DNA from: Steroidobacter denitrificans
GTDB taxonomy: Bacteria; Pseudomonadota; Gammaproteobacteria; Steroidobacterales; Steroidobacteraceae
DNA: 64,000 nucleotides
Reading direction: 5' to 3'
Assembly (NCBI RefSeq): GCF_001579945.1
Contig: NZ_CP011971.1
Location: forward strand, 770,001 to 834,000
This document shows, piece by piece, positions 9,261-48,487 of this stretch. The notes below the pieces were generated by a model, which was not told the origin of the DNA, did not search any database, and saw nothing but the letters and a program-made list of their open reading frames with translations. Made by a program: the position numbers and the translations under genes. Each line of letters begins with the position of its first letter. Positions within the stretch are counted from its first letter, which is position 1.

Positions 9261-9280
9261 CATCATCCATGTGGACGATG
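9261..9280. promoter_or_regulatory. candidate regulon operator, site 1
   Basis: CATCATCC-ATGT-GGACGATG has one mismatch to the palindrome CATCGTCC-N4-GGACGATG, which recurs in five other intergenic regions of the window. It lies between the divergent FAD-subunit gene (start 9084, 177 nt away) and the SnoaL-like gene (start 9381, 101 nt away). The rest of the 9085-9380 gap shows nothing else I can name. Confidence 0.65.
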
Positions 9281-9380
9281 CGAGGTTTTCAGTGCCCCGC
9301 TTAGCATTTTTTGCCGCTCTAACAGCGGCTTGCAACGCGGGTGCAGGAAAAGACGGCCCGCCATGATCCGGAGAATCCGC

Positions 9381-9854
9381 ATGTCCGCTACAAAAACGAT
9401 GGATGCCGCAGTCGCACGCTTGGTCGACATAGAGGCCGTCAAGCAGCTGAAGGCACGATATTGCTACCTCGTCGATGATGCTCAGTGGGATGAGCTGGAG
9501 AATCTCTGGACGGAGGACGCCGTCTGCGATTACGGCTTCTTCGGCCGCTTTCTGGGGCGGCAGGCCATCATGAACGATTTCTTCCGCACCCTGGTGGCCA
9601 GCGCCTCTACTTTCAATGCGCATATGCTGCACAATCCGATCATCGAGCTCGAAGGCGACGGCGCCGATGCTTCGTGGTACTTCACTGCGCATACGACCGT
9701 AAACGGCAGGGCGCTCCTGGCGATGGGCAAGTACCGCGATCGATATGTGCGAGTGCAGGGACAATGGAAAATTGCCGCCATCGCCGTCGAGTTCAAGTAC
9801 TACACGCCTCTCGAGGAAGGTTGGGTCAAGACGCCGATGTGGCAACCGGCTTGA
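9381..9854 (+). CDS. SnoaL-like (NTF2-fold) protein
   Basis: This 157-residue protein has the cone-shaped alpha/beta fold signature of SnoaL_4 proteins: IEAVKQLKARYCYLVDDAQW, WTEDAVCDYG, then a C-terminal sheet ending FKYYTPLEEGW. Members include steroid delta-isomerases, dehydratases and hydroxylating enzymes, and also many of unknown role. I chose ATG 9381 because GGAG lies 10 nt upstream. A luciferase-like gene follows after 16 nt, and the pair begins the divergent unit that includes the molybdenum large subunit. A role as isomerase or dehydratase is only a guess. Confidence 0.8.
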   Translation: MSATKTMDAAVARLVDIEAVKQLKARYCYLVDDAQWDELENLWTEDAVCDYGFFGRFLGRQAIMNDFFRTLVASASTFNAHMLHNPIIELEGDGADASWYFTAHTTVNGRALLAMGKYRDRYVRVQGQWKIAAIAVEFKYYTPLEEGWVKTPMWQPA

Positions 9855-9870
9855 GTGGGCGGAGAAATTC

Positions 9871-10791
9871 ATGCGATTTGCGATCCGTTTGCCCGCCAAT
9901 ATCCTTTACAAGGCGCTTACCAGCCCCTGGGAAGCAACGCTGCCGCCTGAGAAGTCGGTGCATTTCGCCAAGGCGGTCGATGAGCTGGCCTACGATTATC
10001 TCTGGGTGGCTGAGCATATCGTGCAGCATCCCAAGCTCGTGCCCGCCATGGGCGCGAAATTCTACGAAGCGGTATCGGCCGCAGGCTTTCTGTTGGGCGC
10101 TACGCAGCGCATCCACCTGTTGACCTACATCTGCCCCATTCCGTATCACAACCCGTTGGTCTGGGCCAAGGCGATTGCTTCGGTGGATCATCTCTCCGGC
10201 GGCCGGCTTGCGCTCGGACTCGCCGCCGGGCACCTGCGGCGTGAATTCGAGGCCATCGGCGTGTCCTTCGAGAAACGAGGGGCGATCTGCGATGAATATC
10301 TGCAGGCGATGAAAGAGCTGTGGACCAGCGACCGGCCGGAGTTTCACGGAGAGTTCGTCAACTTCAGCAACATGATCTTCGAGCCCAAGCCCTGTCAGTC
10401 GCCGCATCCGCCGCTGCTCATCGGCGGGGATGCAAAACCGGCGCTGCGCCGCGCCGCAAAATTCGGCGACGGCTGGCTGCCCTGGCAGACCACGCGCCGC
10501 GAAATGAAGGATGCGATCGCCTATATCCACGATCAGCCGGAAGTGCAGGCGCGTACCCGGCCCTTCGAAGTCTTTACGCTGCTGGCCGAGGTCCCCGAGG
10601 AGGATCGGCTCAACTTCGACAAGATGCATTATCCGCGGTACAAGGACGAGACGGTCGACTTGATCGGCCAGCTGAAGGACGCCGGCGCCACCGGAATGGT
10701 CGTCCACTTGCCCAAGACGGACTCCTACGAGGAGTGCCTCGACTGGGTGAGATGGTTCTCGCAGGAGATCATTCCCCTGTATCGGACTTGA
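9871..10791 (+). CDS. luciferase-like monooxygenase (LLM) flavoprotein
   Basis: This 306-residue TIM-barrel protein belongs to the bacterial luciferase/F420-dependent family. Motifs are YDYLWVAEHIV near residue 38, VDHLSGGRLALGLAAGHLRREFEAIG near 105-130, and PPLLIGGDAKPALRRAAKFGDGW near 185-205. Such enzymes use FMNH2 or reduced F420 to oxidise or reduce ketones and aldehydes. Which cofactor applies cannot be read here. ATG 9871 has GGAG ten nucleotides upstream; the longer open frame from 9745 overlaps the previous gene and was rejected. A second LLM gene lies at 44258-45133. Confidence 0.88.
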   Translation: MRFAIRLPANILYKALTSPWEATLPPEKSVHFAKAVDELAYDYLWVAEHIVQHPKLVPAMGAKFYEAVSAAGFLLGATQRIHLLTYICPIPYHNPLVWAKAIASVDHLSGGRLALGLAAGHLRREFEAIGVSFEKRGAICDEYLQAMKELWTSDRPEFHGEFVNFSNMIFEPKPCQSPHPPLLIGGDAKPALRRAAKFGDGWLPWQTTRREMKDAIAYIHDQPEVQARTRPFEVFTLLAEVPEEDRLNFDKMHYPRYKDETVDLIGQLKDAGATGMVVHLPKTDSYEECLDWVRWFSQEIIPLYRT

Positions 10792-14433: not shown

Positions 14434-14453
14434 CATCGTCCAAGCAGACGAGG
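14434..14453. promoter_or_regulatory. candidate regulon operator, site 2
   Basis: CATCGTCC-AAGC-AGACGAGG matches the recurring palindrome with two changes, both in the right half. It lies 77 nt before the cycloisomerase-like gene. Confidence 0.6.
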
Positions 14454-14530
14454 AGCGAGGCGAAACCGTCACGTAGATTTTAAAAGATTATTCGGATCGA
14501 TCCTTCCAGGACTGCTGGCCAAGGTGTTAT

Positions 14531-15394
14531 ATGACCCAGACCGTAATCGAGCAGACCGTTTCCGTAACAAGCACTGTCCTGGCAACAGATGAAGGTCGTC
14601 AGCGGGGGCATTGGTTTTCGACCAATCCAGACAAGGCCTGGGGCGAGAAGTTTTTTCTTGCCTATCTGCCGTACTTCTTCGCGCTGAATTACGCCAAGCA
14701 GCTCATGGGCTGGATGAACGTCAACACGTTCTGGCACATGACCCAGAATCTGGCGCTGTTGCTGCCGCTGATCATCATCCCGGCTGTCCTGAGGCCGGCC
14801 GTCACCGGGCGGGCATGGTGGGACAACTATGCCGTCAAGATGGTGCTGTGGATGTTCGTCTACAACTTCATCGGCACCTATTTCGGCTGCGAGTATTTCT
14901 TCGATGTGCTGGGCATGGTGTATTACTTCCCGCAGGTCACGCTGTCGCTGGATTCGGCGTTGATGGGCAGCGGTCAGCAAGTCATCCCGCTCGGCATGTA
15001 TTTCAACGCGCCGGCCTTCTTCGTGGTATATCATACGATTGCCGTATTGATGATGCGGCGCATTCGCACCATCGATTCCGGAGCGTTGAAACCGGTGTTG
15101 ACGGTCGTGACCGTGGTCGGGGTCGCCTATCTCATGGCCTTCCTTGAAACCCGGCTGGTCGCCACCGATGCCAACAAGCCGTACTTTTGGTACAAGGACC
15201 TCGGCTGGATGCTGAAGTATGGCTCGTTATTCTATGCCTGCTATTTTCTGCCGAGCTTTCCGATGGTCTTCAGGCTGGAGGAAAAGCCCGGTGATCGCTG
15301 GCCGGTGAGCAAGATCGTGTTCGAAGCCCTGGCGGCAGGCGTACTCGCGATCGTTCTCATCGACTTCGCGACTCACTTCATGCGCAATACTTGA
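14531..15394 (+). CDS. cycloeucalenol cycloisomerase-like membrane protein
   Basis: This 287-residue protein has six or seven hydrophobic segments. It resembles plant cycloeucalenol cycloisomerase (CPI1, EC 5.5.1.9), which opens the 9-beta,19-cyclopropane ring of sterols. Shared blocks, compared from memory, are NPDKAWGEKFFL near residue 32, LWMFVYNFIGTYF followed by YFFDVLGMVYYFP near 115-140, YHTIAVLMMRRIRT near 170, AYLMAFLET near 200, and YGSLFYACYFLPSFPMVFR with EEKPGDRW near 230-260. Length is close to the plant enzyme. The first 28 residues are polar. Cyclopropyl isomerisation is inferred from homology; the setting among catabolic genes suggests use on an imported substrate. A 16-bp tandem duplication spans the stop codon. 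Confidence 0.85.
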   Translation: MTQTVIEQTVSVTSTVLATDEGRQRGHWFSTNPDKAWGEKFFLAYLPYFFALNYAKQLMGWMNVNTFWHMTQNLALLLPLIIIPAVLRPAVTGRAWWDNYAVKMVLWMFVYNFIGTYFGCEYFFDVLGMVYYFPQVTLSLDSALMGSGQQVIPLGMYFNAPAFFVVYHTIAVLMMRRIRTIDSGALKPVLTVVTVVGVAYLMAFLETRLVATDANKPYFWYKDLGWMLKYGSLFYACYFLPSFPMVFRLEEKPGDRWPVSKIVFEALAAGVLAIVLIDFATHFMRNT

Positions 15395-15457: not shown

Positions 15458-17083
15458 ATGAACAATGTCGACCTGAAGAACGAACGTAATCGAATACCTT
15501 TCAGGCTGCTGCGCCTGCATGCCGATGCGATCGGCGACTCGCCGTTTCTGCTCAGCGATGAGCGAAGCTACAGTTACGGTCAGGCGAACGCCGTGGTAAA
15601 CGCCTATGCGCACGGTCTGCGCCGGCTGGGCCTTCAGGCCGGCGACCGGCTGATGCTCTATATGCACAGCTGTGTGGAGTTCGTGCTGCTCAGTCTGGCG
15701 GCCAACAAGCTGGGTGCGCTGTGGGTGCCGGTCAATACCGACTACCGCGGCGAATGGTTGAGCGACACCATCAATGCAAGTAAAGGCGCCGTACTGGTCA
15801 CGGATACGGACTTGCTCGAAAAACTCCGGCCCGTGGAGCGGGAGCTTCGTTACGAGCGGTTGGTCCTGCGCGGTGGAGCGGAGGCTGCCGGCGGGGAATT
15901 CGCCCAGCGCGGCATCGTTTCCCTGGACGAACTGGCAGATAATTCCGAGGCTGAACCTGAGACGAAACATATAGGCTATGGCGATGCGGCGGCCGTGCTG
16001 TGGACCTCGGGTACCACCGGCAAGCCGAAGGGTGTGCTTCAGAGTCATAATGTCTGGATCCGTGCCGCCGTGAACAACGATCGGCTCTACGGCACTCGGC
16101 CCGGCGATATCACTTACAACTGCCTGCCGCTCTACAATTCGGCGGCCTGGGTAGCCAACATCTACCGGGCCTTGACGACCGGTATTCCCTGTGCCCTCGA
16201 TGAACAGTTCTCGGTCTCGAAGTTTTGGGATCGCATCCGGTTTTACGGCGCCACGCAGACGATGACGCTCGGCGCGATGCACATGTTCCTGTGGAATGAG
16301 CCGCGCAAGGCCGACGATGCGGACAACCCGCTGCGGGTGGCGAGCATGGTACCCATGCCGCATAAGCTGATCGCGCCCTTTTGTGAGCGCTTTGGCCTGG
16401 AAGCCATCGTTCAGGGTTTCGGGCAGAGCGAAGTGATGCCTATCCTCACCAAGGCGGAATCGGCCGAGAAGCAATTCAAGCCGAATGCGCTGGGAAAGTT
16501 GTTCGAAGATATGGAACTGAAGCTGCTTCGCGATGATGGCCAGGAAGCCGGGCCGGGTGAACCCGGCGAGTTTACGATTCGACCGCTGGCTCCGCACATC
16601 ATTTTCAGCGGTTATTTCGACGATCCGGAGGCCACCAAAAAGGCATTTCGCGGCGAGTGGTACGGTACGGGCGATCTCGGCATGAGGGATGCGGAGGGAG
16701 ACTACTTTTTCGTCGACCGCAAGAAGGATTATATTCGCTACAAGGGCCGGAATATCTCCTCGCTTCAGGTCGAGGGCATCGCCGCCAGCCATCCCGCCGT
16801 CCAGGCGGCGGCGGTCTATGGTCTGCCCTCGGATACCCTGGAGTCGGAACATGAGATCAAGCTCGATGTGATCCTGAAGCCCGGGCAGCAGCTGCGCCCC
16901 GAAGAACTGGCAGGCTATATCAACGAGCGCGCACCCTACTTTTGTGTGCCGCGTTATATCGACTTCGTCGATGAGTTGCCTTATACGCCCACCCAGAAAC
17001 TCGAGAAGTACAAGCTGCGCGCCAAGGGATTGTCGGCGTCCACCTGGGACCGTCTGAAAAGCGACTTCAAGCTGCAGCGTTAA
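15458..17083 (+). CDS. acyl-CoA synthetase (AMP-forming)
   Basis: This 541-residue ANL-superfamily ligase activates a carboxylic acid as acyl-AMP and then acyl-CoA. Motifs are the P-loop WTSGTTGKPKGVLQSH (about 183-198), YGTGDLGMRDAEGDYFF (about 403) and VDRKKDYIRYKGRNIS (about 422-437). The C-terminal YTPTQKLEKYKL carries the catalytic Lys. It lies downstream of the cycloisomerase-like gene and upstream of module A. It probably primes a side-chain or ring-derived acid for the hydratase/retro-aldolase genes that follow. The natural acid cannot be read from sequence. Confidence 0.93.
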   Translation: MNNVDLKNERNRIPFRLLRLHADAIGDSPFLLSDERSYSYGQANAVVNAYAHGLRRLGLQAGDRLMLYMHSCVEFVLLSLAANKLGALWVPVNTDYRGEWLSDTINASKGAVLVTDTDLLEKLRPVERELRYERLVLRGGAEAAGGEFAQRGIVSLDELADNSEAEPETKHIGYGDAAAVLWTSGTTGKPKGVLQSHNVWIRAAVNNDRLYGTRPGDITYNCLPLYNSAAWVANIYRALTTGIPCALDEQFSVSKFWDRIRFYGATQTMTLGAMHMFLWNEPRKADDADNPLRVASMVPMPHKLIAPFCERFGLEAIVQGFGQSEVMPILTKAESAEKQFKPNALGKLFEDMELKLLRDDGQEAGPGEPGEFTIRPLAPHIIFSGYFDDPEATKKAFRGEWYGTGDLGMRDAEGDYFFVDRKKDYIRYKGRNISSLQVEGIAASHPAVQAAAVYGLPSDTLESEHEIKLDVILKPGQQLRPEELAGYINERAPYFCVPRYIDFVDELPYTPTQKLEKYKLRAKGLSASTWDRLKSDFKLQR

Positions 17084-17451: not shown

Positions 17452-17471
17452 AACCCTCCAAGTGGACGATG
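17452..17471. promoter_or_regulatory. candidate regulon operator, site 3
   Basis: AACCCTCC-AAGT-GGACGATG has a perfect right half and a weak left half of the recurring palindrome. It lies 75 nt before the first gene of module A. Just upstream, TAGCGTAC occurs at 17410-17417 and 17430-17437, two helical turns apart. The rest of the 17186-17545 gap has no recognisable feature. Confidence 0.5.
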
Positions 17472-17545
17472 TTGGGGGGCAAACCCCATTGTTAGCCTCT
17501 ATACCGAAGCTTGATTTGGCATCGCTTCCCATGGAGATCGAAAAG

Positions 17546-18058
17546 ATGGCTTTGGATATCGCCGAGGTGAATGCGCTCGTCGGCAAGGAATCCGCCCTGA
17601 GGGCGGCCCGGCATGCAGCGAATATTCCGGACATCCGCCACTGGTGCGAAGTGATCCAGCAAGACAACCGGAGCTACAAGGAGTTCGAAAAGAACACCGT
17701 ACATGCGCCGGCCGCCCTGCTGATGGTCTGGACGATGCCGCCGCTATGGTCCCCGGAATCGGCGGCGGCCACCGAGCCCCACGAACGTGCAATCAAGCTG
17801 CTGGAAGACGCGGGCTACGGCACCGGTTTGGCAGTGGCATTGGAACAGAAATTCCTGCGGCCTCTGAAGGTCGGGGAGCGGTTGAGCTACCGGGTGAAAT
17901 TGTCCGGCGTGTCGTCGGGCGAAGTCGAAACCGGTATCGGGCGCGGTTATCAGCTGGATCTGCTCTATACCTTCCAGAATCAGGACGGCGATGTCGTCAG
18001 TGAGCAGCTGTGCCGCCGTGCGCAGGTGGCCCGGATAACGGTGCCGGCGAAGCATTGA
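17546..18058 (+). CDS. hotdog-fold MaoC-like dehydratase subunit (N-terminal type), module A
   Basis: This 170-residue single-hotdog protein resembles the FAS1-like/MaoC N-terminal dehydratase domain (RHWCEVIQQDNRSYKEF near residue 31, ALEQKFLRPLKVGERLSYR near 95). The catalytic SGDxNPxH signature is absent, so it probably serves as the non-catalytic half of a heteromer with one of the two following hotdog genes, as ChsH2 pairs with ChsH1 in Mycobacterium. I chose ATG 17546 because GGAG lies 9 nt upstream; the open frame extends back to a GTG at 17462, over the candidate operator. The next gene follows after 24 nt. Confidence 0.8.
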   Translation: MALDIAEVNALVGKESALRAARHAANIPDIRHWCEVIQQDNRSYKEFEKNTVHAPAALLMVWTMPPLWSPESAAATEPHERAIKLLEDAGYGTGLAVALEQKFLRPLKVGERLSYRVKLSGVSSGEVETGIGRGYQLDLLYTFQNQDGDVVSEQLCRRAQVARITVPAKH

Positions 18059-18082
18059 GACCGAATCGGAGGTAAGGGATTC

Positions 18083-18688
18083 ATGGCTAACAAGTTCGGT
18101 GTTCTGCCGTTCAACAGTCCGGTCGAGCCGACCATGGACTACTCGAAGGTCGCTCCGCTGATCGGCGTACAGAGTCCGAAGCATCTGCCGCACGACCGGG
18201 TGACGGTAGAGGATGTGGATCGCTGGTGCCAGGTGATGCGCGACACCAATCCCCTTTATACGGACGAGGAATACGCGAAAAAGAGCCCCCACGGCGGGTT
18301 GCTCGCGCCCTCGGGCATGGTCCATGTGTTCGCCCTGGGGACGATGAAGGCCGCCATCGATCAATTCGTGCACGGCCAGTGCGAATTTCCGGACGATCCG
18401 AACGTCAAGCTGAATGTCGTGGTCGAGCAGGAGGGCTATACCGGCGTCATGGCGACCGCGCAGCGCCAGCAGCACTTCAAGCGAATCCGGGTGGGCGACG
18501 AGATCCACTGGACCATCGGTATTTTACGTCTTTCGGATTACGATCATCTGACGCGCCAGGGGGTCGGCCGAAAGTATCAGATCCTGTATCAGTTCTATAA
18601 CCAGAATGACGAGTTGCTGTGCAACCAGTCCTTCGACGTGCTCGTCTACCGGGCGCCGATGAGCACTCGTCGGCTGTACGCGGGCTGA
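18083..18688 (+). CDS. hotdog-fold FAS1-like dehydratase subunit, module A
   Basis: This 201-residue protein shows VEDVDRWCQVMRDTNPLYTD (about 47-66) and a following GGLLAPSGMVHVF, then IRVGDEIHWTIGILRLSDYD. These mark the long-hotdog FAS1-like dehydratase type. DTNPLY replaces the catalytic DxNPxH, so the His is missing. It would partner a catalytic MaoC protein, most likely 18726-19166. Its closest relative in the window is 51533-52144 (module C), which shares the DPNPLYWSEEF-like block. A strong CGGAGG site precedes the ATG. Confidence 0.82.
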   Translation: MANKFGVLPFNSPVEPTMDYSKVAPLIGVQSPKHLPHDRVTVEDVDRWCQVMRDTNPLYTDEEYAKKSPHGGLLAPSGMVHVFALGTMKAAIDQFVHGQCEFPDDPNVKLNVVVEQEGYTGVMATAQRQQHFKRIRVGDEIHWTIGILRLSDYDHLTRQGVGRKYQILYQFYNQNDELLCNQSFDVLVYRAPMSTRRLYAG

Positions 18689-18725
18689 ACGCATCCAAGA
18701 ATCGCTTACGAAGAGGAATCAGGCA

Positions 18726-19166
18726 ATGTCGCGCGAGATCAACAATGTCTATTGGGAAGACGTGCAGGTCAAACAGGATCTCCCGGAGAAGAGCCGGGTT
18801 ATCGACACGACGCTGATCGCGATGGGCGCGACCTGGGCCACGCATGACTTCATGCCGGTGCACCATGACCGGGACTTCGCGCAGTCCAAGGGCGCACCCG
18901 ATATTTTCATGAACATTCTCACCTCGAATGGCCTGATGATGACCTACCTCGAGCAATGGGCCGGTCCGCAGGCAGTGATCAAGGACATCTCCATCAAGCT
19001 GTCGGTGCCGAATTTTCCGCGGGACAAGATGGATATGAATGCCCGCGTCACCCGCAAGTGGGAAGAGAAGGGCGAGCATCTGATCGAGGTTGCCTTCAGC
19101 GGCGACAACCAGATGGGGCCGCATGCCAGCGGTACCGCAGTCATCTCTCTGCCGACGCGAGGGTAA
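18726..19166 (+). CDS. MaoC-like enoyl-CoA hydratase subunit, module A
   Basis: This 146-residue hotdog hydratase has the block HDFMPVHHDRDFAQSKGAPD followed by IFMN, which places the Asp/His pair of the hydratase-2 family. In Mycobacterium the ChsH1 type gives the catalytic residues of a heterotetramer that hydrates steroid side-chain enoyl-CoA. It sits between the FAS1-like subunit and the thiolase-fold gene (4 nt between stop and next start). The paralogue 51066-51536 in module C shares the GLPDIFMN and WAGP segments. Activity is inferred from family and order. Confidence 0.85.
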   Translation: MSREINNVYWEDVQVKQDLPEKSRVIDTTLIAMGATWATHDFMPVHHDRDFAQSKGAPDIFMNILTSNGLMMTYLEQWAGPQAVIKDISIKLSVPNFPRDKMDMNARVTRKWEEKGEHLIEVAFSGDNQMGPHASGTAVISLPTRG

Positions 19167-19170
19167 GACG

Positions 19171-20346
19171 ATGTCCTTGAAAAACAAGGCGTGCATCGTC
19201 GGTATCGGTTCGACGGAATTCACCCGCAATGCCGGCCGCAGCGAGATTCATCTCGCCGTGGATGCGGTCACGGCCGCTTGTGTGGATGCCGGCCTGGAGA
19301 TCGATCAGATCGACGGAATGTCGAGCTACGGCACCGCCGGCATCTATGCGGCGGAATTGGCGCCCGATATCGATGTGGCGCGCAGCCTGGGCATTCCCAA
19401 TCTGCGCTACTTCGGACAGACGCCCTGGGGCGGCGGCGCCAGCTGCGGAGTGGTTGCCCATGCGGCCATGGCCGTCGCCTCCGGCGTGGCCAACTACGTG
19501 GTGTGTTACCGGTCGCTGAAGCCGGCCAGCGGTACGGTCCGCTATGGCCGGCCGACGGCCATTCCGGCCGAATACCGCTACAGCTATTACATGCCGTATG
19601 GCTTCGCCAGCCCGACGATGTGGGTGGCGACAATGGCCAAGCGCTGGATGCACGAAACCGGGGCGACGCGCGAGCAGCTCGGCTACGTGGCGCTGGTGAG
19701 TCGCGAGAATGCCTTGCGTAATCCGCGGGCGATGTTCTACGGCAGGCCGCTGACCATGGAGGAGTATCTGCATTCTCCGATGTCCTCGGATCCCTTCACG
19801 CTGCACGACACCTGCCTGGAAAACGACGGCGCCGTGGCGCTGATCGTCACGACGCCGGAACGCGCCCGGGATCTGAAACAAAAGCCCGCTTTCATCGCCG
19901 GTGTCGGCTTCGGTACTTCTTACGATTCGCACAGCATGACGTCTTTTTATCGCGACTCGATCGGTCTGCCGGAATGCACCGAAGCGGCGCGTGAAGTTTT
20001 CCGGATGGCTGAGCTCACGCAGAAGGATATCGACGTCGCGCAGCTCTATGACGCATTCACCGCGACCGTGCCCATGCAGCTGGAGACCTATGGTTTTTGC
20101 AAGTACGGGGAAGGCGGCGCCTTCTGTCAGGGGGGCGATCGCATCCGCCTCGGCGGCGAGTTACCGATCAATACCTCGGGTGGCATGCTGGCGGAAGCTT
20201 ATATTCACGGCATGAACATGATCGCCGAAGGAGTGCGGCAGGTACGCGGCACCTCGACATCGCAGGTGAAGGACGCACAGAACGTGCTCGTCACCGGTGG
20301 GCTCGGCGTGCCGACGACGGCGCTCATCCTCACCCAAGGTAATTGA
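19171..20346 (+). CDS. thiolase-fold retro-aldolase (Ltp2-like), module A
   Basis: This 391-residue protein of the SCP-x/thiolase superfamily begins NKACIVGIGSTEFTRNAGRS. The GHP motif with the catalytic His is replaced by MLAEAYIHG after INTSGG, and the usual HDCFT block reads YDAFT, with Tyr in place of His. These changes are seen in steroid aldolases such as Ltp2, which split 17-hydroxy side-chain CoA thioesters instead of performing thiolysis. Such enzymes need a DUF35 partner; one is encoded 27 nt downstream. ATG 19171 follows GGGTAAGACG; the longer frame overlaps the previous gene. Confidence 0.87.
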   Translation: MSLKNKACIVGIGSTEFTRNAGRSEIHLAVDAVTAACVDAGLEIDQIDGMSSYGTAGIYAAELAPDIDVARSLGIPNLRYFGQTPWGGGASCGVVAHAAMAVASGVANYVVCYRSLKPASGTVRYGRPTAIPAEYRYSYYMPYGFASPTMWVATMAKRWMHETGATREQLGYVALVSRENALRNPRAMFYGRPLTMEEYLHSPMSSDPFTLHDTCLENDGAVALIVTTPERARDLKQKPAFIAGVGFGTSYDSHSMTSFYRDSIGLPECTEAAREVFRMAELTQKDIDVAQLYDAFTATVPMQLETYGFCKYGEGGAFCQGGDRIRLGGELPINTSGGMLAEAYIHGMNMIAEGVRQVRGTSTSQVKDAQNVLVTGGLGVPTTALILTQGN

Positions 20347-20373
20347 CGAGTTTCGCATACGGGAGTCGAGCCG

Positions 20374-20808
20374 ATGTCCATTGAATACAACCCGAAGTAC
20401 ATGAAGCACTTCTATGACCCCGTCTGGGAGAATTTCGAAGACGGGTTCTGGCAGGGCATCAAGCAACGCAAGTTGAAGTTCCAGAAATGCTCCGGGTGCG
20501 GCACGTTCAGCCATCCTCCCCGGGTTCGCTGCCCGAAGTGCAAGGGCGAGGGTTGGGAGTGGGTCGAATCCAGCGGCAAGGGCCGTATCTACAGCTGGAC
20601 CGTGGCACGGCAGGAAGTGCATCCGGCCTTCCGGGTCCCCTTTGAAATCGTGCTCGTCGAAATGGAAAACGAGCCCGGCGTACGCCTTATTTCCAACATG
20701 GTCGACTGTACCCCCGAAGAGATCTCTTTCGACATGCCGGTCGAGGTCTGCTTCAGGGAGGTCACCAAGGAGTGGGCGCTTCCCATGTTCAAGAAAGTCG
20801 GCGGCTGA
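20374..20808 (+). CDS. DUF35 zinc-ribbon/OB-fold partner protein, module A
   Basis: This 144-residue protein has an N-terminal helical hairpin, then a four-Cys rubredoxin-like ribbon (CSGCGTF and CPKCKGEGW, about 36-56). An OB-fold follows, with GKGRIYSWTVARQEVHPAF. DUF35 proteins bind thiolase-fold enzymes and complete the CoA-thioester channel. In Mycobacterium the DUF35 domain of ChsH2 is needed for the Ltp2 aldolase. Placement between the retro-aldolase and the acyl-CoA dehydrogenases supports that pairing. Confidence 0.9.
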   Translation: MSIEYNPKYMKHFYDPVWENFEDGFWQGIKQRKLKFQKCSGCGTFSHPPRVRCPKCKGEGWEWVESSGKGRIYSWTVARQEVHPAFRVPFEIVLVEMENEPGVRLISNMVDCTPEEISFDMPVEVCFREVTKEWALPMFKKVGG

Positions 20809-20823
20809 GCGGCAAGGACACTC

Positions 20824-21948
20824 ATGGATTTCTCGCTGAGTGACGAACAGGAGCTGTTCCGGGATTCGGTTCGCAAATTTCTTCAGGAACGATGTCACTC
20901 GACGCTCCTGAGAGAGCTGGAAAACAGCGACACGGGTTTCTCGGCGGCGCTTTGGGAACAGATCGCCGCACAGGGTTGGACCGGGATCGCGATCGCAGAG
21001 GCCCACGGCGGCTCGGATCTCGGCCTGCTCGAGCTTGGGGTATTACTCGAGGAAATCGGCAGAGCCGCCTTTGACAGCCCGTTTTTTGCCAACCTCATGG
21101 CAACGTTGGCGATACAGGGCGGCGGCAGCGATGCCCAGAAGCAACGGCTTTTGCCCGGTATCGCCGACGGCAACGTGATCGTGTCACCGGCCATCGAAGA
21201 GCTGGGCGTTGCCTATGAACCCCGCTTCGTGACAACTCGTGCGGTACGTGCGGCCGATGGTTTCATCCTCAGCGGCCGCAAGATGTTCGTGCCGTATGCC
21301 AGCATCGCGAACCAGCTATTGGTGCTGGCGAGAACGGCGGGTGCGATCGGTGATGAAGATGGTTGCAGCCTGTTTCTGGTGGATCGCGGGGCTCCAGGTA
21401 TCGAGCTGACACGGCTCGAGAGCATCGCACCGGACCGGCAGTTCCAGGTCGACTTCGGCGACGTAGTGGTTCCGGCGGATGCCGTGCTGGGCGAGGCAGG
21501 TGCCGCGCTGCGAATCCTGAAAGATGTATATCGGCAATGTACGGCCCTGGTCTGTGCGGAAATGCTGGGTGGCGCGGAGTACCAACTCGCCGTCACCGCC
21601 GAGTATGTCAAGCAGCGGACCCAATTCGATCGGCCTCTCGGGTCGTTCCAGGCCGTACAACATCATCTGGCCGACATGTTCACGCTGGTGCAGGGGTCGC
21701 GCTGGACCACCTATCAGGCGATCGAGCAGTTGAGCCGCAATAGGACGGCAGAGCGGGAGATCACCATCGCCAAGGCGTTCTCGAGCGATGCCTGCCAACG
21801 GGTGGCCGCGCTGGCGCAGCAACTCCACGGTGGTGTGGGTGTCGATATGGCGAACGATCTGCAGTTCTACTTCCGCCGTGCCAAGGCGATGGAGCTGAAA
21901 TTCGGCCCGACGCCGGTGCAGCTCAGGCGTCTGGGCGAGCAGCTTTAA
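20824..21948 (+). CDS. acyl-CoA dehydrogenase subunit, module A (ChsE1-like)
   Basis: This 374-residue flavoprotein has the acyl-CoA dehydrogenase fold: N-terminal helices MDFSLSDEQELFRDSVRKF, a middle beta domain with FILSGRKMFVPYA, and a C-terminal domain with QRTQFDRPLGSFQAVQH and QLHGGVGV. The middle domain reads VIVSPAIEELG, unlike the usual TEP(D/G)AGSD loop. That fits an alpha2beta2 enzyme in which one subunit is degenerate at the active site, as in ChsE1/ChsE2. The partner gene starts 30 nt downstream. Module C has the matching gene 49878-51056. Confidence 0.88.
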   Translation: MDFSLSDEQELFRDSVRKFLQERCHSTLLRELENSDTGFSAALWEQIAAQGWTGIAIAEAHGGSDLGLLELGVLLEEIGRAAFDSPFFANLMATLAIQGGGSDAQKQRLLPGIADGNVIVSPAIEELGVAYEPRFVTTRAVRAADGFILSGRKMFVPYASIANQLLVLARTAGAIGDEDGCSLFLVDRGAPGIELTRLESIAPDRQFQVDFGDVVVPADAVLGEAGAALRILKDVYRQCTALVCAEMLGGAEYQLAVTAEYVKQRTQFDRPLGSFQAVQHHLADMFTLVQGSRWTTYQAIEQLSRNRTAEREITIAKAFSSDACQRVAALAQQLHGGVGVDMANDLQFYFRRAKAMELKFGPTPVQLRRLGEQL

Positions 21949-21978
21949 TCTGGACCGGCTCACGCAGCGGGAGCGAGC

Positions 21979-23172
21979 ATGGATTTCCAACTGACCGAAG
22001 CACAGCAGCAGCTGCAACGGGAACTTGTCGCCTATTTGCAAGGGCACATCACGCCTGAGCTGGAAGCCGAACTTCTAGCTCAGCAGGAAGGCGGTGGACC
22101 GGATACGCATCCGCATTACAGCCGATTCATGCGGCAACTGGGGCGCGATGGCTGGCTCGGACTGGCATGGCCGAAACAATACGGCGGTCAGGAAAGGGAC
22201 GCCATCGACCAATACATCTTCTTCGACACCATCAGCGGCTATTATCGAATTCCGATTCCGTTCCTGGCGATCAACGCCATCGGCCCCACCATCATGCGCG
22301 CGGGCACCGAGGAACAGAAAGATCGTTTCCTGCCGCCGCTTCTGCGCGGTGAACTGAACATCGCCGTCGGCTACACGGAGCCTGGCGCGGGCAGCGATCT
22401 GGCCTCGCTCAAGACCAAAGCGGTGCGCGACGGCGATGATTATGTCATCAATGGGCAAAAGGTATTTACCAGCCTGGCGCATTTCTGCGACTACATCTGG
22501 CTGGCGGCACGAACCGATCCCACCGTAAAGAAACACAAGGGTATTTCGATCTTCATGGTGGATACCCGACTGCCCGGCATCACGATCAATCCCCTGCGAA
22601 CCATGGGCGGCTTTCGCACCAATGTAACTTTCTACGACAATGTGCGAGTACCGAAGTCCTGCCTGATCGGCGAGGAAAACAAGGGCTGGAGCTACATCAA
22701 CTCCCAGCTCGCGATGGAACGAATCGGGTTGGTACCGCACTCGCGAATGCGGCGGGTGCTCGAGGACATGATTGCCTGGGCGAAAAATACGACGATCGAC
22801 GGCAGACGTGTCTTCGATGAGTCCTGGGTACGGGAAAGACTGGCCGATCTCACTACAAAGACCGAAGTACTACGGCTGTTCAATTTCCGCGCGGCGAGCC
22901 AGATCAGCCAGGGCATCGAACCTTTCGCGGAAGCGGCCATGACCAAGGTATTCGGCTCGGAGCTCTTTCAGAGTGTGGCGGGTACATGCATGGACATGAT
23001 GGGACTGATCGGGGGGCTGCAGCCGCCGTCGGACATCTCGCCCGCAAAAGGTATTTTCCAGCGCGATTTTGCCGCGATGCGATTGCTGACCTTTGGCGGG
23101 GGAGCCAATGAAGTTCTCAAGGATATGATTGCGCTGGGCGGGCTCGGCATGCCGCCCTCACGACTTGCCTGA
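21979..23172 (+). CDS. acyl-CoA dehydrogenase subunit, module A (ChsE2-like)
   Basis: This 397-residue acyl-CoA dehydrogenase has a canonical substrate and FAD loop, GYTEPGAGSDLASLKTKA (about 132-149), the DDYVINGQKVFTS strand, and NVTFYDNVRVPKSCLIGE. The C-terminal part has PFAEAAMTKVFGSELF. It should carry the FAD site of a heterotetramer with 20824-21948 and introduce an alpha,beta double bond in a branched side-chain acyl-CoA. The module C counterpart is 48629-49822. The flavoprotein gene follows 12 nt after its stop. Confidence 0.88.
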   Translation: MDFQLTEAQQQLQRELVAYLQGHITPELEAELLAQQEGGGPDTHPHYSRFMRQLGRDGWLGLAWPKQYGGQERDAIDQYIFFDTISGYYRIPIPFLAINAIGPTIMRAGTEEQKDRFLPPLLRGELNIAVGYTEPGAGSDLASLKTKAVRDGDDYVINGQKVFTSLAHFCDYIWLAARTDPTVKKHKGISIFMVDTRLPGITINPLRTMGGFRTNVTFYDNVRVPKSCLIGEENKGWSYINSQLAMERIGLVPHSRMRRVLEDMIAWAKNTTIDGRRVFDESWVRERLADLTTKTEVLRLFNFRAASQISQGIEPFAEAAMTKVFGSELFQSVAGTCMDMMGLIGGLQPPSDISPAKGIFQRDFAAMRLLTFGGGANEVLKDMIALGGLGMPPSRLA

Positions 23173-23184
23173 GAGAGGTAGACC

Positions 23185-24879
23185 ATGACCGCGAGCTGGA
23201 ACCATGCCGTCGATGTGCTGGTGATCGGATCCGGAGCCGGAGCCATGGTAGCCGCCTTGACGGCGCATGACCGAGGCGCCTCGACACTGCTCATCGAAAA
23301 GAGCCCGCTCTATGGTGGCTCCTCGGCGAAGTCCGGCGGCGGTCTCTGGATTCCGAATAATCACCTGATGCAGGCAGCGGGTCTGGAGGATAGCCCGGAT
23401 GCCGCCATGGATTATCTCAGGGTGGTGACCCAGGGCCGCGAACCTGAGGAACGGCTGCAGACCTTCGTGATGACCGCGCCGGAAATGCTGCGCTATCTCG
23501 CCGAACGCACGCGTTTCAAGCCGCAGTGCATGCCGACGTATCCGGACTATTATCCCGGCCGGCCCGGCTGGCGCGGCGGCGGCCGGGGCATCGAGTCGGC
23601 GTACTTCGATGCCCGGGTGCTCGGCGAGGAATTCGAGCGCATGGTGGCCTATCCAGGCACCGCGATGATGGGCCGCTACAATGTCACGCTCAAGGATACG
23701 CACGACATGCTCTGCCGCAAGCCTGGCTGGGCAGGGCGCATGCTTCGGGTGCTCGGAAGATATTGGCTGGATCTACCCTGGCGCTTCAGGTCGCGGCGCT
23801 GTCGGGATCTGGCCGCGGGCGCTGCGCTGGTGGCGTCACTACGAGCCTCGCTCATGGATCGTAACATTCCTTTGTGGCTGAGTACTCCGGCACGCGAATT
23901 AGTGTACGAAAACGGCCGGGTGACAGGCGTCGTGGCGGAACGCGATGGCCGTACCGTACGGATTGGCGCAAACCGAGGCGTCATTCTGGCTGCCGGCGGG
24001 TTCGAGTCGAATCAAGCATTGCGTGAGCGTTATCTGCCGGCGCCGACCGATGCCGCCTGGACGGTCGGTAATGTGTACAACACGGGAGATGCGCTCCAAC
24101 TCGGCCAGTCCATCGGTGCCAAGATCGATCTCATGGCCACCTGTTGTTGGATGCCCATCAGTCCGGTACCCGGTTGGGAAAGTCCGGTCGGGATTCTGTT
24201 CGAACGAGCCCTGCCCGGGGGCTATATCGTCAGCCAGGGCGGTGCAAGATTCGTCAATGAGGCGCTGCCTTACATCGATACCGTCGAGGCAATCTATGCG
24301 AACAATCGCCCCGATGCGCCAACGGTGCCATCCTGGCTGATCTGCGACGCGACTTTCAGGAAGAAATACCCTTTCGGACCGCTGATGCCTGCCAGCGTAC
24401 AGCCTGACTGGATGATATCCCGACAGCAGCGAAGCTTCATGAAGAAGGCGAACTCGCTCGAGGAACTTGCACGACTCACCGGTATAAACCTGGCTGGCTT
24501 GAAGGATACGGTGGCCAAGGTGAATCAGTACGCCCGTACGGGTGTCGATCTCGATTTCCACCGCGGCGAAGGCGCCTATGAGCGCTTCTACGGCGATCCG
24601 TTCGTCCAACCGAATTCCACACTCGGACCGATCGAAACTCCGCCGTTCTACGCCATGTCCATCTATCCCGGCGATCTCGGTACGACCGGCGGCTTGAAGA
24701 CGAATGTCCATGCCCAGGTCATGACGGAACAAAATGAGGTGATTCCCGGCTTCTATGCGGTCGGCAACTGCTCGGCCTCGGCGATTGCCGGTACTTATCC
24801 GGGTCCGGGATCGACTCTGGGGCCTGCAACCACGTTTGGCTATATTGCAGCACGTCACCTGACGGCAACGAGCGCCTGA
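23185..24879 (+). CDS. 3-ketosteroid-delta1-dehydrogenase-like FAD flavoprotein
   Basis: This 564-residue protein of the FAD-binding 2 family resembles KstD closely. Shared landmarks are the Rossmann motif VLVIGSGAGAMVAAL (11-25), YGGSSAKSGGGLWIPNN (43-59), YPDYYPGRPG near 119-128, FVNEALPYID (356-365), YPGDLGTTGG near 494-503 and GTYPGPGSTLGPATTFGY near the end. Tyr122/123, Tyr363 and a Tyr in the FYAMSIYPGD block lie where the family catalytic tyrosines are expected. KstD removes 1-alpha and 2-beta hydrogens of 3-ketosteroids. A delta4(5-alpha)-dehydrogenase is an alternative. It is the last gene of module A and the clearest evidence that the pathway handles steroids. Confidence 0.85.
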   Translation: MTASWNHAVDVLVIGSGAGAMVAALTAHDRGASTLLIEKSPLYGGSSAKSGGGLWIPNNHLMQAAGLEDSPDAAMDYLRVVTQGREPEERLQTFVMTAPEMLRYLAERTRFKPQCMPTYPDYYPGRPGWRGGGRGIESAYFDARVLGEEFERMVAYPGTAMMGRYNVTLKDTHDMLCRKPGWAGRMLRVLGRYWLDLPWRFRSRRCRDLAAGAALVASLRASLMDRNIPLWLSTPARELVYENGRVTGVVAERDGRTVRIGANRGVILAAGGFESNQALRERYLPAPTDAAWTVGNVYNTGDALQLGQSIGAKIDLMATCCWMPISPVPGWESPVGILFERALPGGYIVSQGGARFVNEALPYIDTVEAIYANNRPDAPTVPSWLICDATFRKKYPFGPLMPASVQPDWMISRQQRSFMKKANSLEELARLTGINLAGLKDTVAKVNQYARTGVDLDFHRGEGAYERFYGDPFVQPNSTLGPIETPPFYAMSIYPGDLGTTGGLKTNVHAQVMTEQNEVIPGFYAVGNCSASAIAGTYPGPGSTLGPATTFGYIAARHLTATSA

Positions 24880-28704: not shown

Positions 28705-28864
28705 TGTCTTTACCCTATTGATCGAACACATGCCCCATGCCGTTGTTGCGAAATTACTACAATTCCTGTTTCTTGTTCATGAGCTTTTGATGCTCGTATC
28801 TCCGCATAAAATCGGATTTTTAATGGCATTGAGAAATGACACTAGGGAATGTGTATCGTTGTAA

Positions 28865-33676: not shown

Positions 33677-33708
33677 CATCGTCCGGACGGACGATGAGCC
33701 GGACGATG
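33677..33708. promoter_or_regulatory. candidate regulon operator, site 5 (perfect, with a third half-site)
   Basis: CATCGTCC-GGAC-GGACGATG (33677-33696) is an exact match to the recurring palindrome. A further GGACGATG follows at 33701-33708, again after a 4-nt spacer, giving a 12-nt phasing. It lies midway between the divergent genes starting at 33566 (minus) and 33810 (plus). Confidence 0.7.
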
Positions 33709-33809: not shown

Positions 33810-35909
33810 ATGATGCTCGAAGGCAGATTGCGGTGCGCCGCCGTGCTCCTGGCGCTCGGTATCATCGCCTCCGTCGCTGGGGCCGGCACCGTAGTGGTGG
33901 ACGACCGGATCCTTGCCGATGAGGACAATGGCCGGGACTGGGCCGGCTACGGCCGCACGTTCAGCGAGCAGCGCCACAGTCCCCTCCGACAGATCGATAC
34001 ACAAAACATCCGGCGCCTCGGCCTGGCCTGGAGTCTCGAACTGGAGACGCCCGGCAATGTCGCCACCGCTCCTCTGGAAGTGGATGGCGTAATCTATTTC
34101 GGTGTCGGCCTCAGTGTGATCCACGCGGTGGATGCCAGGACCGGCAAGCTGTTGTGGCGCTACGATCCGGAGACGGCCAAGGCGGCCGGCGCCAAGCTGC
34201 GGCTTGCGTGGGGTATACGCGGCATCGCCTTCTGGAACGGCAAGGTTTACTCCGGCACCCAGGACGGCCGTCTGATCGCCGTCGACGCGAACAGCGGCGC
34301 GCTGGTGTGGAGTGTCATGACGGTTGACAAGAACGATCGGCGCTACATCACCGGGGCGCCGCGTGTTTTCGACGGCAAGGTCATCATCGGCCACGGCGGT
34401 GCCGATTTCGGTCCGGTGCGCGGCTATGTCACCGCCTACGATGCCGAGAGCGGTCGCCAGCTGTGGCGCTTCCATACCGTGCCCGGCAATCCCGCCGACG
34501 GCTTCGAGAGCCCGGCCATGGAGATGGCGGCAAAGACCTGGACGGGACAATGGTGGAAATTCGGCGGCGGCGGCACGGTGTGGAACGCCATGAGCTACGA
34601 TCCCGAGCTCAAGCGTGTCTATCTCGGCACCGGCAACGGCGCGCCCTGGAACCACAAGCTGCGCAGTCCCGGCGGCGGCGACAATCTTTTCCTTTGCTCG
34701 ATCGTCGCGCTCGATGCCGAGACCGGCGCATATCTCTGGCATTACCAGACCAATCCGGGCGAGAGTTGGGACTTCAACTCGACAATGGACATGGTGCTCG
34801 CCACCCTGTCCATCGACGGCCGGCCGCGCAGGGTGCTGCTGCACGCACCGAAGAACGGCTTCTTCTATGTCATCGATCGCGATAACGGCAAGCTGATCTC
34901 CGCTGAAAAAATCGTCAAGGCGACGTGGGCCGAGCGTATCGACCTGGCGAGCGGCCGCCCGGTGGAAGCGGCTGGCGTCCGTTACGAGAATGGCGAGGCG
35001 CTGATCTGGCCCGGTCCCTTCGGAGCCCACAACTGGCAGCCCATGGCTTATAACCCGGCAGCCGGCCTTGTCTACATCCCGGTGCGCGATATGCCGGGAT
35101 ATTACAATGACAAGGGTATCGATCCCGCCACTTACAGCAATGGTCCGGGTTCGCGCAACACCAACGGCATCAATATCTCCAGCAGCGATATTCCGATCGA
35201 TGCCGGTCACAGCTTTCTGCTCGCCTGGGATCCGCTGCGCCAGAGGGAAGCCTGGCGCGTGCCGACACCGGGCCTGTGGAACGGCGGAGTGCTGACGACG
35301 GCGGGTAATCTGGTCTTTCAAGGCCATGCCGGCGGCAAGCTCGTGGCCTATGATGCGCGCGACGGCCGCGAGCTGTGGTCCTACAGCCTAGGCGTGGGCA
35401 CGATTGCGCCGCCGATCAGCTATGCAGTGGACGGCCGGCAATATATCTCGATACTTGCCGGGTGGACTGGTGGAACGGTGCTGCTCGGTTCCCTCAGCGC
35501 TCAGCATGGTTGGGTCGGGCGTGCCTACCCGCGCCGTCTGCTGACTTTTGTTCTCGATGGCAGGGCGCAACTGCCTGCCTCACCACCACCGGCACCGCCC
35601 TTGCCGGTGGACGATCCTGATTTCGTCATCGACGCCGCCAAGGCTCGCGACGGCGCCGCCCTCTATCGCGCCTGTGCCCTTTGCCATGGCATGGGTGCGG
35701 TGGCCGGCGGTTATATACCGGATCTGCGTGCCTCGACCGTGCCGCTCTCCAAGGAGGCTTTCGAACGTGTCGTGCGCGGCGGCGCGCTGCTCGAGCGCGG
35801 CATGCCGGTCTTTGGCGAGTTGAGCGATGAGGATCTGGAAGCTCTGCGTCATTACTTGCGGGAGCGTGCCAGAGCGTCGCATCCCGACGCCGCCGCACCG
35901 GATCCATGA
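33810..35909 (+). CDS. PQQ-dependent alcohol dehydrogenase with C-terminal cytochrome c domain
   Basis: This 699-residue periplasmic quinohaemoprotein has a signal peptide (RLRCAAVLLALGIIASVAGA), then an eight-bladed propeller with tryptophan-docking repeats (AVDANSGALVWS, AYDAESGRQLW, ALDAETGAYLWHY). The catalytic Asp lies in GESWDFNST; the residue two on is Asn, as expected for a calcium enzyme and not a lanthanide one. The vicinal Cys-Cys pair that normally precedes RGxAxW is missing (LAWGIRGIAFW). A C-terminal haem c domain has CALCH, with MPVFGEL giving the axial Met. It should oxidise an alcohol to an aldehyde and feed the respiratory chain. The TTG-initiated extension to 33780 is unlikely. 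Confidence 0.9.
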   Translation: MMLEGRLRCAAVLLALGIIASVAGAGTVVVDDRILADEDNGRDWAGYGRTFSEQRHSPLRQIDTQNIRRLGLAWSLELETPGNVATAPLEVDGVIYFGVGLSVIHAVDARTGKLLWRYDPETAKAAGAKLRLAWGIRGIAFWNGKVYSGTQDGRLIAVDANSGALVWSVMTVDKNDRRYITGAPRVFDGKVIIGHGGADFGPVRGYVTAYDAESGRQLWRFHTVPGNPADGFESPAMEMAAKTWTGQWWKFGGGGTVWNAMSYDPELKRVYLGTGNGAPWNHKLRSPGGGDNLFLCSIVALDAETGAYLWHYQTNPGESWDFNSTMDMVLATLSIDGRPRRVLLHAPKNGFFYVIDRDNGKLISAEKIVKATWAERIDLASGRPVEAAGVRYENGEALIWPGPFGAHNWQPMAYNPAAGLVYIPVRDMPGYYNDKGIDPATYSNGPGSRNTNGINISSSDIPIDAGHSFLLAWDPLRQREAWRVPTPGLWNGGVLTTAGNLVFQGHAGGKLVAYDARDGRELWSYSLGVGTIAPPISYAVDGRQYISILAGWTGGTVLLGSLSAQHGWVGRAYPRRLLTFVLDGRAQLPASPPPAPPLPVDDPDFVIDAAKARDGAALYRACALCHGMGAVAGGYIPDLRASTVPLSKEAFERVVRGGALLERGMPVFGELSDEDLEALRHYLRERARASHPDAAAPDP

Positions 35910-46050: not shown

Positions 46051-46062
46051 TGTCCCATCTCC

Positions 46063-47214: not shown

Positions 47215-47232
47215 CGAGGCAACTCCGAGCGC

Positions 47233-48393
47233 TCAGTAGGAGCGCGGCAGGCCGAGCAGGTGCTCGGCGACGTAGGCGAGGATCAGGTTGGTCGAGATCG
47301 GTGCCACCTGATAGAGACGTGTTTCGCGGAACTTGCGCTCCACATCATATTCGTTGGCGAAACCGAAGCCGCCGTGGAACTGCAGGCAGGCGTTGGCGGC
47401 TTCCCAGGAGGCTTTGGCCGCGAGGTGCTTGGCCATGTTCGCCTGAGCGCCGCAGGGTTGGCCGGCATCGAACAGACGGCAGGCCTCGAAGCGCATCAGA
47501 TTGGCCGCCTCGATCTCGATGTAGGCTTCGGCGATCGGGAATTGCACGCCCTGATTCTGGCCGATCGGGCGGCCGAAGACGACGCGCCGGTTGGCATAGG
47601 CGGTGACCCGGTCAACGAACCAATGGCCGTCGCCGATGCACTCGGCGGCGATCAGCGTGCGCTCGGCGTTCAGCCCGTCGAGGATGTACTTGAAGCCCTT
47701 GCCCTCCTGACCGATGAGGTTCTCGGCGGAGATCTCCAGATCGTCGAAGAACAGCTCGTTGGTATCTTGATTGAGCATGTTGGGAATGGGTTTCACGGTG
47801 AGACCGCGGCGCATCGCCTCGCGCAGATCCACGACGAAGATCGACATGCCTTCGGACTTCTTGGCGACCTCGGCGAGCGGCGTGGTGCGCGCCAGCAGGA
47901 TCATGAGATCCGAATGTCGTACGCGCGAGATGAAAACTTTTTGACCGTTGACGAGATAGCGGTCACCCTTCTTGACGGCGGTCGTCCTGATGCGGGTGGT
48001 GTCGGTGCCGCTCGTGGGTTCGGTGACCCCCATCGCCTGCAGCCGCAGTTCACCCGAGGCGATCTTCGGCAGGTAGCGCTGCTTCTGTTCCTCCGAGCCG
48101 TGGCGCAGCAGTGTCCCCATGTTGTACATCTGCCCATGGCAGGCGGCAGAGTTGCCGCCGCAGCGGTTGATTTCTTCCATGATGACCGAGGCTTCGGCAA
48201 GGCCGAGGCCGGAACCCCCGTACTGCTGGGGAATCAGCGCCGCCAGCCATCCCGCCTTGGTCAGCGCCTGGACGAATTCCTCGGGATAGGCCTGCTCGGC
48301 CTCCTTCCGGCGGAAATACTCGTCCGGGAATGCCGTGCAGAGATCCCGCACGGCATCGCGTATGTCTGCGTAGTTCTCGGTCCTTGTCTTCAA
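47233..48393 (-). CDS. acyl-CoA dehydrogenase family protein
   Basis: This 386-residue acyl-CoA dehydrogenase begins with helical ENYADIRDAVRDLCTAFPDE. It has GVTEPTSGTDTTRIRTTAVK as the loop near FAD, NMLNQDTNELFFDDLEIS, and AERTLIAAECIG, where a Glu could act as the base as in isovaleryl-CoA dehydrogenase-type enzymes. The C-terminus is QFHGGFGFANEYDVERKFRE. It is the first gene of the minus-strand operon; the candidate operator at 48468-48487 lies 75 nt upstream. The next gene follows after 18 nt. Confidence 0.92.
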   Translation of the reverse strand: MKTRTENYADIRDAVRDLCTAFPDEYFRRKEAEQAYPEEFVQALTKAGWLAALIPQQYGGSGLGLAEASVIMEEINRCGGNSAACHGQMYNMGTLLRHGSEEQKQRYLPKIASGELRLQAMGVTEPTSGTDTTRIRTTAVKKGDRYLVNGQKVFISRVRHSDLMILLARTTPLAEVAKKSEGMSIFVVDLREAMRRGLTVKPIPNMLNQDTNELFFDDLEISAENLIGQEGKGFKYILDGLNAERTLIAAECIGDGHWFVDRVTAYANRRVVFGRPIGQNQGVQFPIAEAYIEIEAANLMRFEACRLFDAGQPCGAQANMAKHLAAKASWEAANACLQFHGGFGFANEYDVERKFRETRLYQVAPISTNLILAYVAEHLLGLPRSY

Positions 48394-48467
48394 GAGTCGA
48401 TCCCCTTCGTGGGCGCAGTGTGGTTGCAGTTCAGGGTGCTATGAGTAGTCACCGCGGGGAGTGCTCG

Positions 48468-48487
48468 CGTCGTCCAAAGAGACGATG
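48468..48487. promoter_or_regulatory. candidate regulon operator, site 6
   Basis: CGTCGTCC-AAAG-AGACGATG matches the recurring palindrome with two changes, one in each half. It lies in the divergent gap 48394-48628, 75 nt before the minus-strand operon and 142 nt before module C. Nothing else is recognised in the gap. Confidence 0.6.

Follow-up and report, generated by a model that had tools for sequence, protein, structure and literature searches.

A 64,000-nucleotide stretch of the Steroidobacter denitrificans chromosome (hereafter the window; bases 770001-834000 of a single-contig genome of 3.467 Mb) carries six copies of a 20-bp palindrome, which is probably an operator for steroid catabolism, recognised by LuxR-type regulators whose sensor domains are GAF-like and PAS-like. 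These regulators would be the protein encoded at 25226-26515 of the window and/or its paralogue (68%) at 861341 of the genome. The motif itself, its clustering, its conservation, its fixed spacing from a -10 element, its company with luxR and the steroid-type genes found at it elsewhere were all computed from the DNA. Positions below 64,000 refer to the window and larger ones to the genome; positions within other loci are prefixed by the locus.

A pattern search of the window returned the six palindromes at the places, on the strands and with the mismatch counts given in an earlier note on this DNA, while shuffled sequences gave a mean of 0.84 matches and none of 100 shuffles reached six. All six boxes are intergenic, the chance of which is 0.129^6 = 5e-6 with an intergenic share of the window of 12.9% by our gene caller. 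Four of them (9261, 28865, 33677 and 48468) lie between divergent genes and two (14434 and 17452) between genes of the + strand. In these respects our gene calls agree with the earlier note; the distance to the nearest likely start codon, put there at 75-180 nt, came close but measured 60 to 161 nt.

We built a position weight matrix (PWM) on the six sites, applied it to 750-934 kb of the genome and retrained it; the retrained set comprises 18 sites, four of them coding. The matrix scan retrieved further intergenic boxes at 837788, 845138, 859483, 864074, 891550, 891748, 907909 and 907934. Ten neighbouring proteins were tested and included TonB receptors, an AMP (adenosine monophosphate)-forming ligase, a SnoaL-like protein, an acyl-CoA (coenzyme A) dehydrogenase, an enoyl-CoA hydratase, a LysR regulator, a hydantoinase-A-like protein and others. 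The refined motif, CATMGTCY-N4-RGACKATG, occurs at 11 places in the genome with no more than one mismatch, nine of them inside 779-908 kb. Since it was built on sites of this island, the original pattern gives the fairer clustering figure: with up to two mismatches it has 12 places in the genome, five in the window and seven in 779-908 kb. The regulon spans a steroid island of 130 kb (779-908 kb) and runs past the window to about 908 kb; the idea of a catabolic regulon was right, but its scope had been drawn too small. When one mismatch is allowed, the motif concentrates in this catabolic island and does not recur at similar density elsewhere. Its specificity comes from the near-perfect set, intergenic placement, -10 spacing and conservation.

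Promoter geometry was studied on 74 non-redundant intergenic boxes drawn from the own genome, from relatives and from the LuxR loci described below, with both flanks read irrespective of genes. A TAnnnT hexamer starting 20-21 nt past the box was present on 37 of 148 flanks (35 boxes), against 1.3 expected from other distances, and 27 of these 37 -10-like hexamers were of the TAG type. In the window, four of the six boxes (9261, 14434, 17452 and 28865) have TAnnnT at this distance. The centre of the box is thus predicted at -42.5 or -43.5 relative to the transcription start. For LuxR-type activators, as at the lux box, -42.5 is the class II position, and the placement indicates a putative class II (lux-box type) activated promoter. 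Its constant position, 20-21 nt ahead of the -10 element, is that of an activator. The half-sites are asymmetric, with A at position 4 on a single side in 48 of the 74 sites; the TAGTC half tends to face away from the -10 element (16 vs 7), which is too few to claim an orientation.

Near-perfect boxes (refined motif, at most one mismatch) were counted in 27 genomes of the family. The own genome has 11, G243 (LuxR 76%) has 8 and G261 (LuxR 52%) has 3; 22 other genomes without a close LuxR have 0-5 each, 29 in total or 1.3 on average. Six pairwise gap alignments were tried, and in four the box is conserved at the orthologous promoter of G243, with arm identities of 16/16 (14434), 16/16 (48468), 15/16 (17452) and 14/16 (33677), while the remaining gap sequence around these boxes is 26-53% identical. 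The values for this remaining sequence are 26% for 14434 (vs L107:5666), 53% for 17452 (vs L066:5655) and 52% for 48468 (vs L108:1920). Because its G243 orthologue is identical at 19 of 20 positions, 17452, the weakest site, was retained. The other two alignments (28865 vs L112 and 9261 vs L114) did not line up the boxes.

The candidate regulator, a LuxR (GerE) protein of 429 amino acids encoded on the + strand at 25226-26515, sits among steroid genes; KstD-like and ChsH2-like proteins are encoded in the same window. Its C-terminal GerE helix-turn-helix (HTH) scores 26.4 bits against a Pfam cut-off of 23.5; at E 1e-5 Pfam matched GerE alone and no autoinducer-binding domain. In the AlphaFold model (pLDDT 78.6, pTM 0.55) the C-terminal helices form an HTH, and an alignment profile matches the HTH of solved LuxR-type response regulators and of VpsT. 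The fold of residues 1-188 resembles the GAF domain of PDE5A (Z 13.1, root-mean-square deviation 3.5, 166 residues aligned) but also, with a bearing on membership of the AHL quorum receptors (LuxR sensu stricto), CviR (Z 11.6, 3.8 and 160, respectively). The N-terminal domain is termed GAF-like here; the second domain is read as PAS from the model alone. Foldseek matches of the model had low TM-scores, and the linker region gave one weak profile match, to histidine kinase chain 7yrt (E 0.0045). The genome encodes two paralogues, at 861341 (68%) and 2764269 (49%).

Proteins of a single genome for each species were searched with the window LuxR, which yielded 34 loci distributed over Steroidobacteraceae, Sterolibacterium, Pseudomonas, Oceanospirillaceae, Solimonas, Pandoraea, Halieaceae and others. 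The matrix trained on the own genome found 35 intergenic matches and one coding match in them, 17 of the 34 loci having one. Two hundred matrices with permuted half-sites gave means of 0.73 intergenic and 2.26 coding matches; their maximum, 21 intergenic, is read as the product of permutations that scarcely changed the matrix. When seven G243 and G261 stretches are added, all but one chosen for holding a near-perfect box, the totals become 45 intergenic matches and one coding match. The constant 4-nt spacer pointed out earlier was borne out, as only this spacer gave a signal in the 34 loci (33 intergenic matches, against 0-3 for spacers of 0-3 and 5-8 nt). A matrix-free seed search for 8-N4-8 palindromes ranked the same palindrome first in nine loci preselected as motif-bearing. 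In L072, L078, L117, L119, L122, L123 and L139 a box lies no more than 150 nt past the luxR stop codon; the gene order in L122 and L123 is box, kshA, luxR, box, the second box directly past luxR.

Box presence may also follow the recognition helix. Halieaceae-type LuxR proteins (L130, L132, L133, L135-L138 and L141) have HTARAQLK where the others have NTxRxHLR, and a box was found at none of these eight loci vs 17 of the 26 of the other helix type (Fisher p 0.0027, for loci related by descent and with the helices of L140 and L144 outside the alignment). A palindrome search for a substitute operator at the Halieaceae-type loci found none. One LuxR locus, L129, is titled as a Klebsiella pneumoniae metagenome-assembled genome (MAG); it is very similar to the LuxR loci L127, L128 and L131, which come from Gammaproteobacteria MAGs, and the Klebsiella pneumoniae label is therefore probably wrong.

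Boxes found motif-first, away from luxR, provide a counter-check to the choice of loci, which was made mostly via LuxR. A search for the box only, at no more than one mismatch, in six genomes that had supplied LuxR loci and in one plasmid gave 8, 8, 1, 2, 1, 7 and 4 places. Six stretches were read, covering all seven places of Pandoraea terrae and four of the eight of Pseudomonas sp. C1C7; five stretches are on contigs other than that of luxR, and the sixth is on the luxR contig, some 170 kb distant. Five intergenic boxes on an 18-kb Pseudomonas stretch are surrounded by genes whose products are a BphC-like dioxygenase, an acyl-CoA-dehydrogenase-fold protein (read as HsaA-like), two KstD-type flavoproteins, a flavin reductase and a ferredoxin-reductase protein (read as KshB-like); one Pseudomonas place (C19) is coding. 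The Pandoraea boxes adjoin a KshA gene and genes for a thiolase, an acyl-CoA dehydrogenase, ligases, a short-chain dehydrogenase/reductase and a major facilitator superfamily carrier, and the Pandoraea luxR locus itself has no box.

LuxR matches were also present in 84 plasmid records, six of which were read. Boxes lie in gaps of plasmids of Caballeronia (six), Cupriavidus C39 (three, plus one coding), Burkholderia (three, weaker, plus one coding) and Vibrio (three, in gaps of the deposited annotation). On the Sphingobium plasmid a box scoring 15.4 adjoins a deposited 3-ketosteroid-9-alpha-monooxygenase gene, with a box of 13.4 elsewhere and one coding match; a deposited 3-ketosteroid-9-alpha-monooxygenase is located near the L161 regulator. 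The Cupriavidus N-1 plasmid (L160, LuxR 42%) has no box. In a survey of the class, LuxR was found in two of 369 genomes, the own genome being one. Exact matches of the motif were found in eight of the 369; since six of the seven outside the own genome are coding, this survey is uninformative. Of two LuxR copies in G645, one has a box of 17.8 nearby and the other nothing above 8.3. Boxes are conserved in four of the six alignments of orthologous gaps and are also present at other steroid loci.

Both the LuxR protein and the TetR protein at 56254 had been named as candidates in the earlier note; LuxR fits, and TetR does not. A TetR operator would keep the pathway repressed until a CoA-ester inducer appears, as with KstR or EdcR. 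TetR repressors do control steroid clusters elsewhere, according to the available part of PMC8700777, and a 71% homologue of TetR 56254 adjoins a box in G243 (L109). However, TetR was found in one of 45 loci (tblastn E 1e-20, half the protein, a setting that a strongly diverged TetR could escape), boxes are present in many loci without it, the tetR region of the window has no box (best score 5.9), and a fixed 20-21 nt upstream of the -10 element is the place of an activator. Since the box does not travel with tetR, we rejected TetR as its owner and regard this reading as highly improbable. Among the window regulators, LuxR alone turns up repeatedly across the 45 loci, a set drawn mostly via LuxR itself, and enzyme genes, e.g., those of acyl-CoA dehydrogenases, recur likewise. 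Company does not equal binding, and the box might belong to another steroid-gene regulator conserved in step with LuxR, which we consider unlikely. The survey was limited to regulators encoded in the window, and others are nearby, with a LysR beside the 845138 site and an AraC at 59452. AraC matched one further locus only of the 45, in the same genome, and was rejected as box owner; the seven loci with a box shortly past the end of luxR also speak against an owner other than LuxR.

Two further readings do without any regulator. As a transcribed hairpin (a terminator or RNA leader), the box would form an 8-bp stem with a 4-nt loop, and the 33677 copy is indeed a perfect stem with a tetraloop. 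Across the 74 sites, however, the arms pair less than expected (398 vs 422.7, standard deviation 7.7, in random re-pairing of half-sites); they do not co-vary, which suggests a protein dimer rather than an RNA stem. In addition, the -10 element, where visible, is downstream of the box, which places the box outside that transcript. On these two grounds the hairpin was rejected, and its probability is negligible. Chance might also account for the boxes, as hits to a codon-like word (GAC GAT) in DNA rich in GC, since coding matches are common at two to three mismatches. We regard this as very improbable given 35 intergenic matches vs one coding match in the 34 loci, orthologous boxes kept within diverged gaps and a fixed -10 spacing.

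Several observations weigh against LuxR as the owner of the box or against the sharpness of the motif. Half of the 34 LuxR loci (17), including all eight of the Halieaceae type, have no site above 14, and, since loci were mostly picked via LuxR, the company of box and LuxR is partly built in. The owners compared were the window regulators LuxR, TetR and AraC only. There is no box in front of luxR 25226 (best score 1.9), and autoregulation through a box in its own promoter was rejected. In the family, G085 and G295 have a LuxR of 48% yet one near-perfect box each, and G233 has no close LuxR yet five. The three-mismatch rule is loose, with 98 places in the genome vs 17 for a reversed-pattern control, and among the outside-window places whose DNA was examined many are coding. 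The refined motif, if as many as two mismatches are allowed, has 10 to 41 places per genome in the 27 family genomes (30 in the own genome), and members without a close LuxR are about as rich as the own genome. A composite of box core and -10 pattern has eight places in the genome, seven in the island, vs 20 genome-wide for its reversed control, so that only the location of the eight is informative. Since many boxes are related by descent, a binomial value for the -10 spacing is too strong, and the 33677 box has no clean -10 element at 20-21 nt on either side.

The dimer-bound operator of a catabolic regulon proposed earlier is supported, and we infer binding by LuxR 25226, activation and a ligand. 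A LuxR dimer would bind both CATCGTCC-type half-sites and, centred near -42.5, would replace the -35 element. RNA polymerase would thereby be brought to promoters that have TAGnnT at -10 as their recognisable core element. The N-terminal domains may sense a steroid or a breakdown product, and sensing would co-induce genes for uptake, activation, ring attack and beta-oxidation. The substrate, left earlier as steroid or terpenoid, is most likely a steroid.

The box at 9261-9280 (+; pattern match, PWM 24.0) is flanked on the + strand by genes for a SnoaL-like protein (9381-9854), a luciferase-like protein and the molybdenum hydroxylase large subunit, and on the - strand by those for flavin (FAD) and iron-sulphur (FeS) subunits; a box at L114:5120 precedes a homologue of this FAD subunit gene. 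A predicted -10 element, TAGCAT (9302-9307, +), starts 21 nt past the box. The box at 14434-14453 (+) is followed by 14531-15394 (+) and by the gene for an AMP-ligase (15458-17083), and its predicted -10 element, TAGATT (14474-14479, +), is identical in hexamer and distance at the orthologous L107 site. The weak box at 17452-17471 (+; three mismatches) precedes a + strand gene run (17531-24879) for FAS1-dehydratase-like, thiolase, OB-fold, two acyl-CoA dehydrogenase and KstD-like proteins; L066 has the same predicted -10 hexamer, TAGCCT (17493-17498, +), at an equal distance.

The box at 28865-28884 (-) reads toward the TonB receptor gene 26521-28731 (-), and its predicted -10 element, TAGTGT (28839-28844, -), is directed at this gene only. 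Some of the genes that flank the boxes may therefore not be targets. The letters of this box are identical at G243 C160:9337, which adjoins another TonB-type gene (29% match), and the gap there is therefore not orthologous. The perfect box at 33677-33696 (no strand assigned) lies between 32952-33566 (-) and the pyrroloquinoline quinone (PQQ) dehydrogenase gene 33810-35909 (+). A third half-site, GGACGATG, is present just past it at 33701-33708. The L109:6337 box, which precedes the homologue of 32952-33566, carries TAGCCT at a distance of 21 nt. The box at 48468-48487 (no strand assigned) separates the beta-oxidation run 48351-39459 (-) from acyl-CoA dehydrogenase genes starting at 48629 (+); a degenerate TACTCA lies 20 nt off on the - side, as it does in L108. 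Beyond the window, two boxes at 907909-907953 (L060:13909-13953) are 25 bp apart and back-to-back within a single divergent gap; both have an outward-facing TAG -10 element. A LysR regulator gene (L057:10076-10957; 844-845 kb) diverges from a box-bearing gap (11138) and is a possible second-level regulator.

Profile searches with Pfam and NCBIfam established the steroid-type gene content of the window. For the KstD-like flavoprotein at 23185 the top NCBIfam model is 3-ketosteroid-delta-1-dehydrogenase, with a score under the model cut-off. The window also encodes ChsH2-like OB-fold and thiolase sets, acyl-CoA dehydrogenases, a molybdenum hydroxylase, a TonB receptor and a PQQ dehydrogenase, and a 790-amino-acid protein at 53804-56176 holds two CoA-transferase family III stretches. 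KshA_C (PF19298) has no match anywhere in the own genome. An anaerobic 2,3-seco route is described for Steroidobacter denitrificans in the accessible portion of PMC6678751, and, going by this description of the species, the island may run it.

Since the own genome has no KshA match and some other box loci have kshA, one switch may serve different chemistries. We lean slightly towards a wider view, in which one GAF-PAS-type LuxR and CATMGTCY-N4-RGACKATG at -42.5 would form a widespread proteobacterial steroid switch, kept while the pathway beneath it is exchanged. It would then govern the oxygen-dependent clusters of kshA type found in Pseudomonas, in Pandoraea and, where the boxes are weaker, in Sphingobium; in the own genome it would govern an island that has a molybdenum hydroxylase but no kshA. 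If so, the box can locate unknown steroid genes in such genomes, and a shared switch of aerobic and anaerobic steroid pathways becomes testable. With its fixed promoter geometry, the box makes a steroid regulon predictable from sequence, including distant or unannotated genes, and offers a promoter part for steroid sensors.

The CATMGTCY-N4-RGACKATG operator was not found in the open-access literature (one library searched). According to PMC6678751, what is described of how Proteobacteria regulate steroid catabolism comes mainly from Comamonas. TeiR/TesR of Comamonas testosteroni is given there and in excerpts of PMC8700777 and PMC13101464 as a LuxR-type protein encoded among steroid genes and needed for induction; these excerpts name no operator for it. 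The window regulator is also of LuxR type and encoded with steroid genes, a likeness by description and not by TeiR sequence. In contrast, TeiR is described as a cell-pole kinase (PMC6678751, in part), whereas the window protein combines GerE with a GAF-like fold and the weak 7yrt match. Like KstR/KstR2 and EdcR, the system unites a steroid regulon by a single palindromic operator, but those are TetR repressors, a protein family other than LuxR, and the operator proposed for EdcR in the available text of PMC8700777 overlaps the -10 box and has a different sequence. With the class II lux box it shares a 20-bp inverted repeat, a GerE-type HTH and a box near -42.5 with a -10 element; it differs in having GAF-like and PAS-like domains with no Pfam autoinducer-binding match at E 1e-5, a GTCC-N4-GGAC core and steroid-type instead of quorum genes. 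Most likely this is a LuxR-type activator and its box, with an unusually wide reach.

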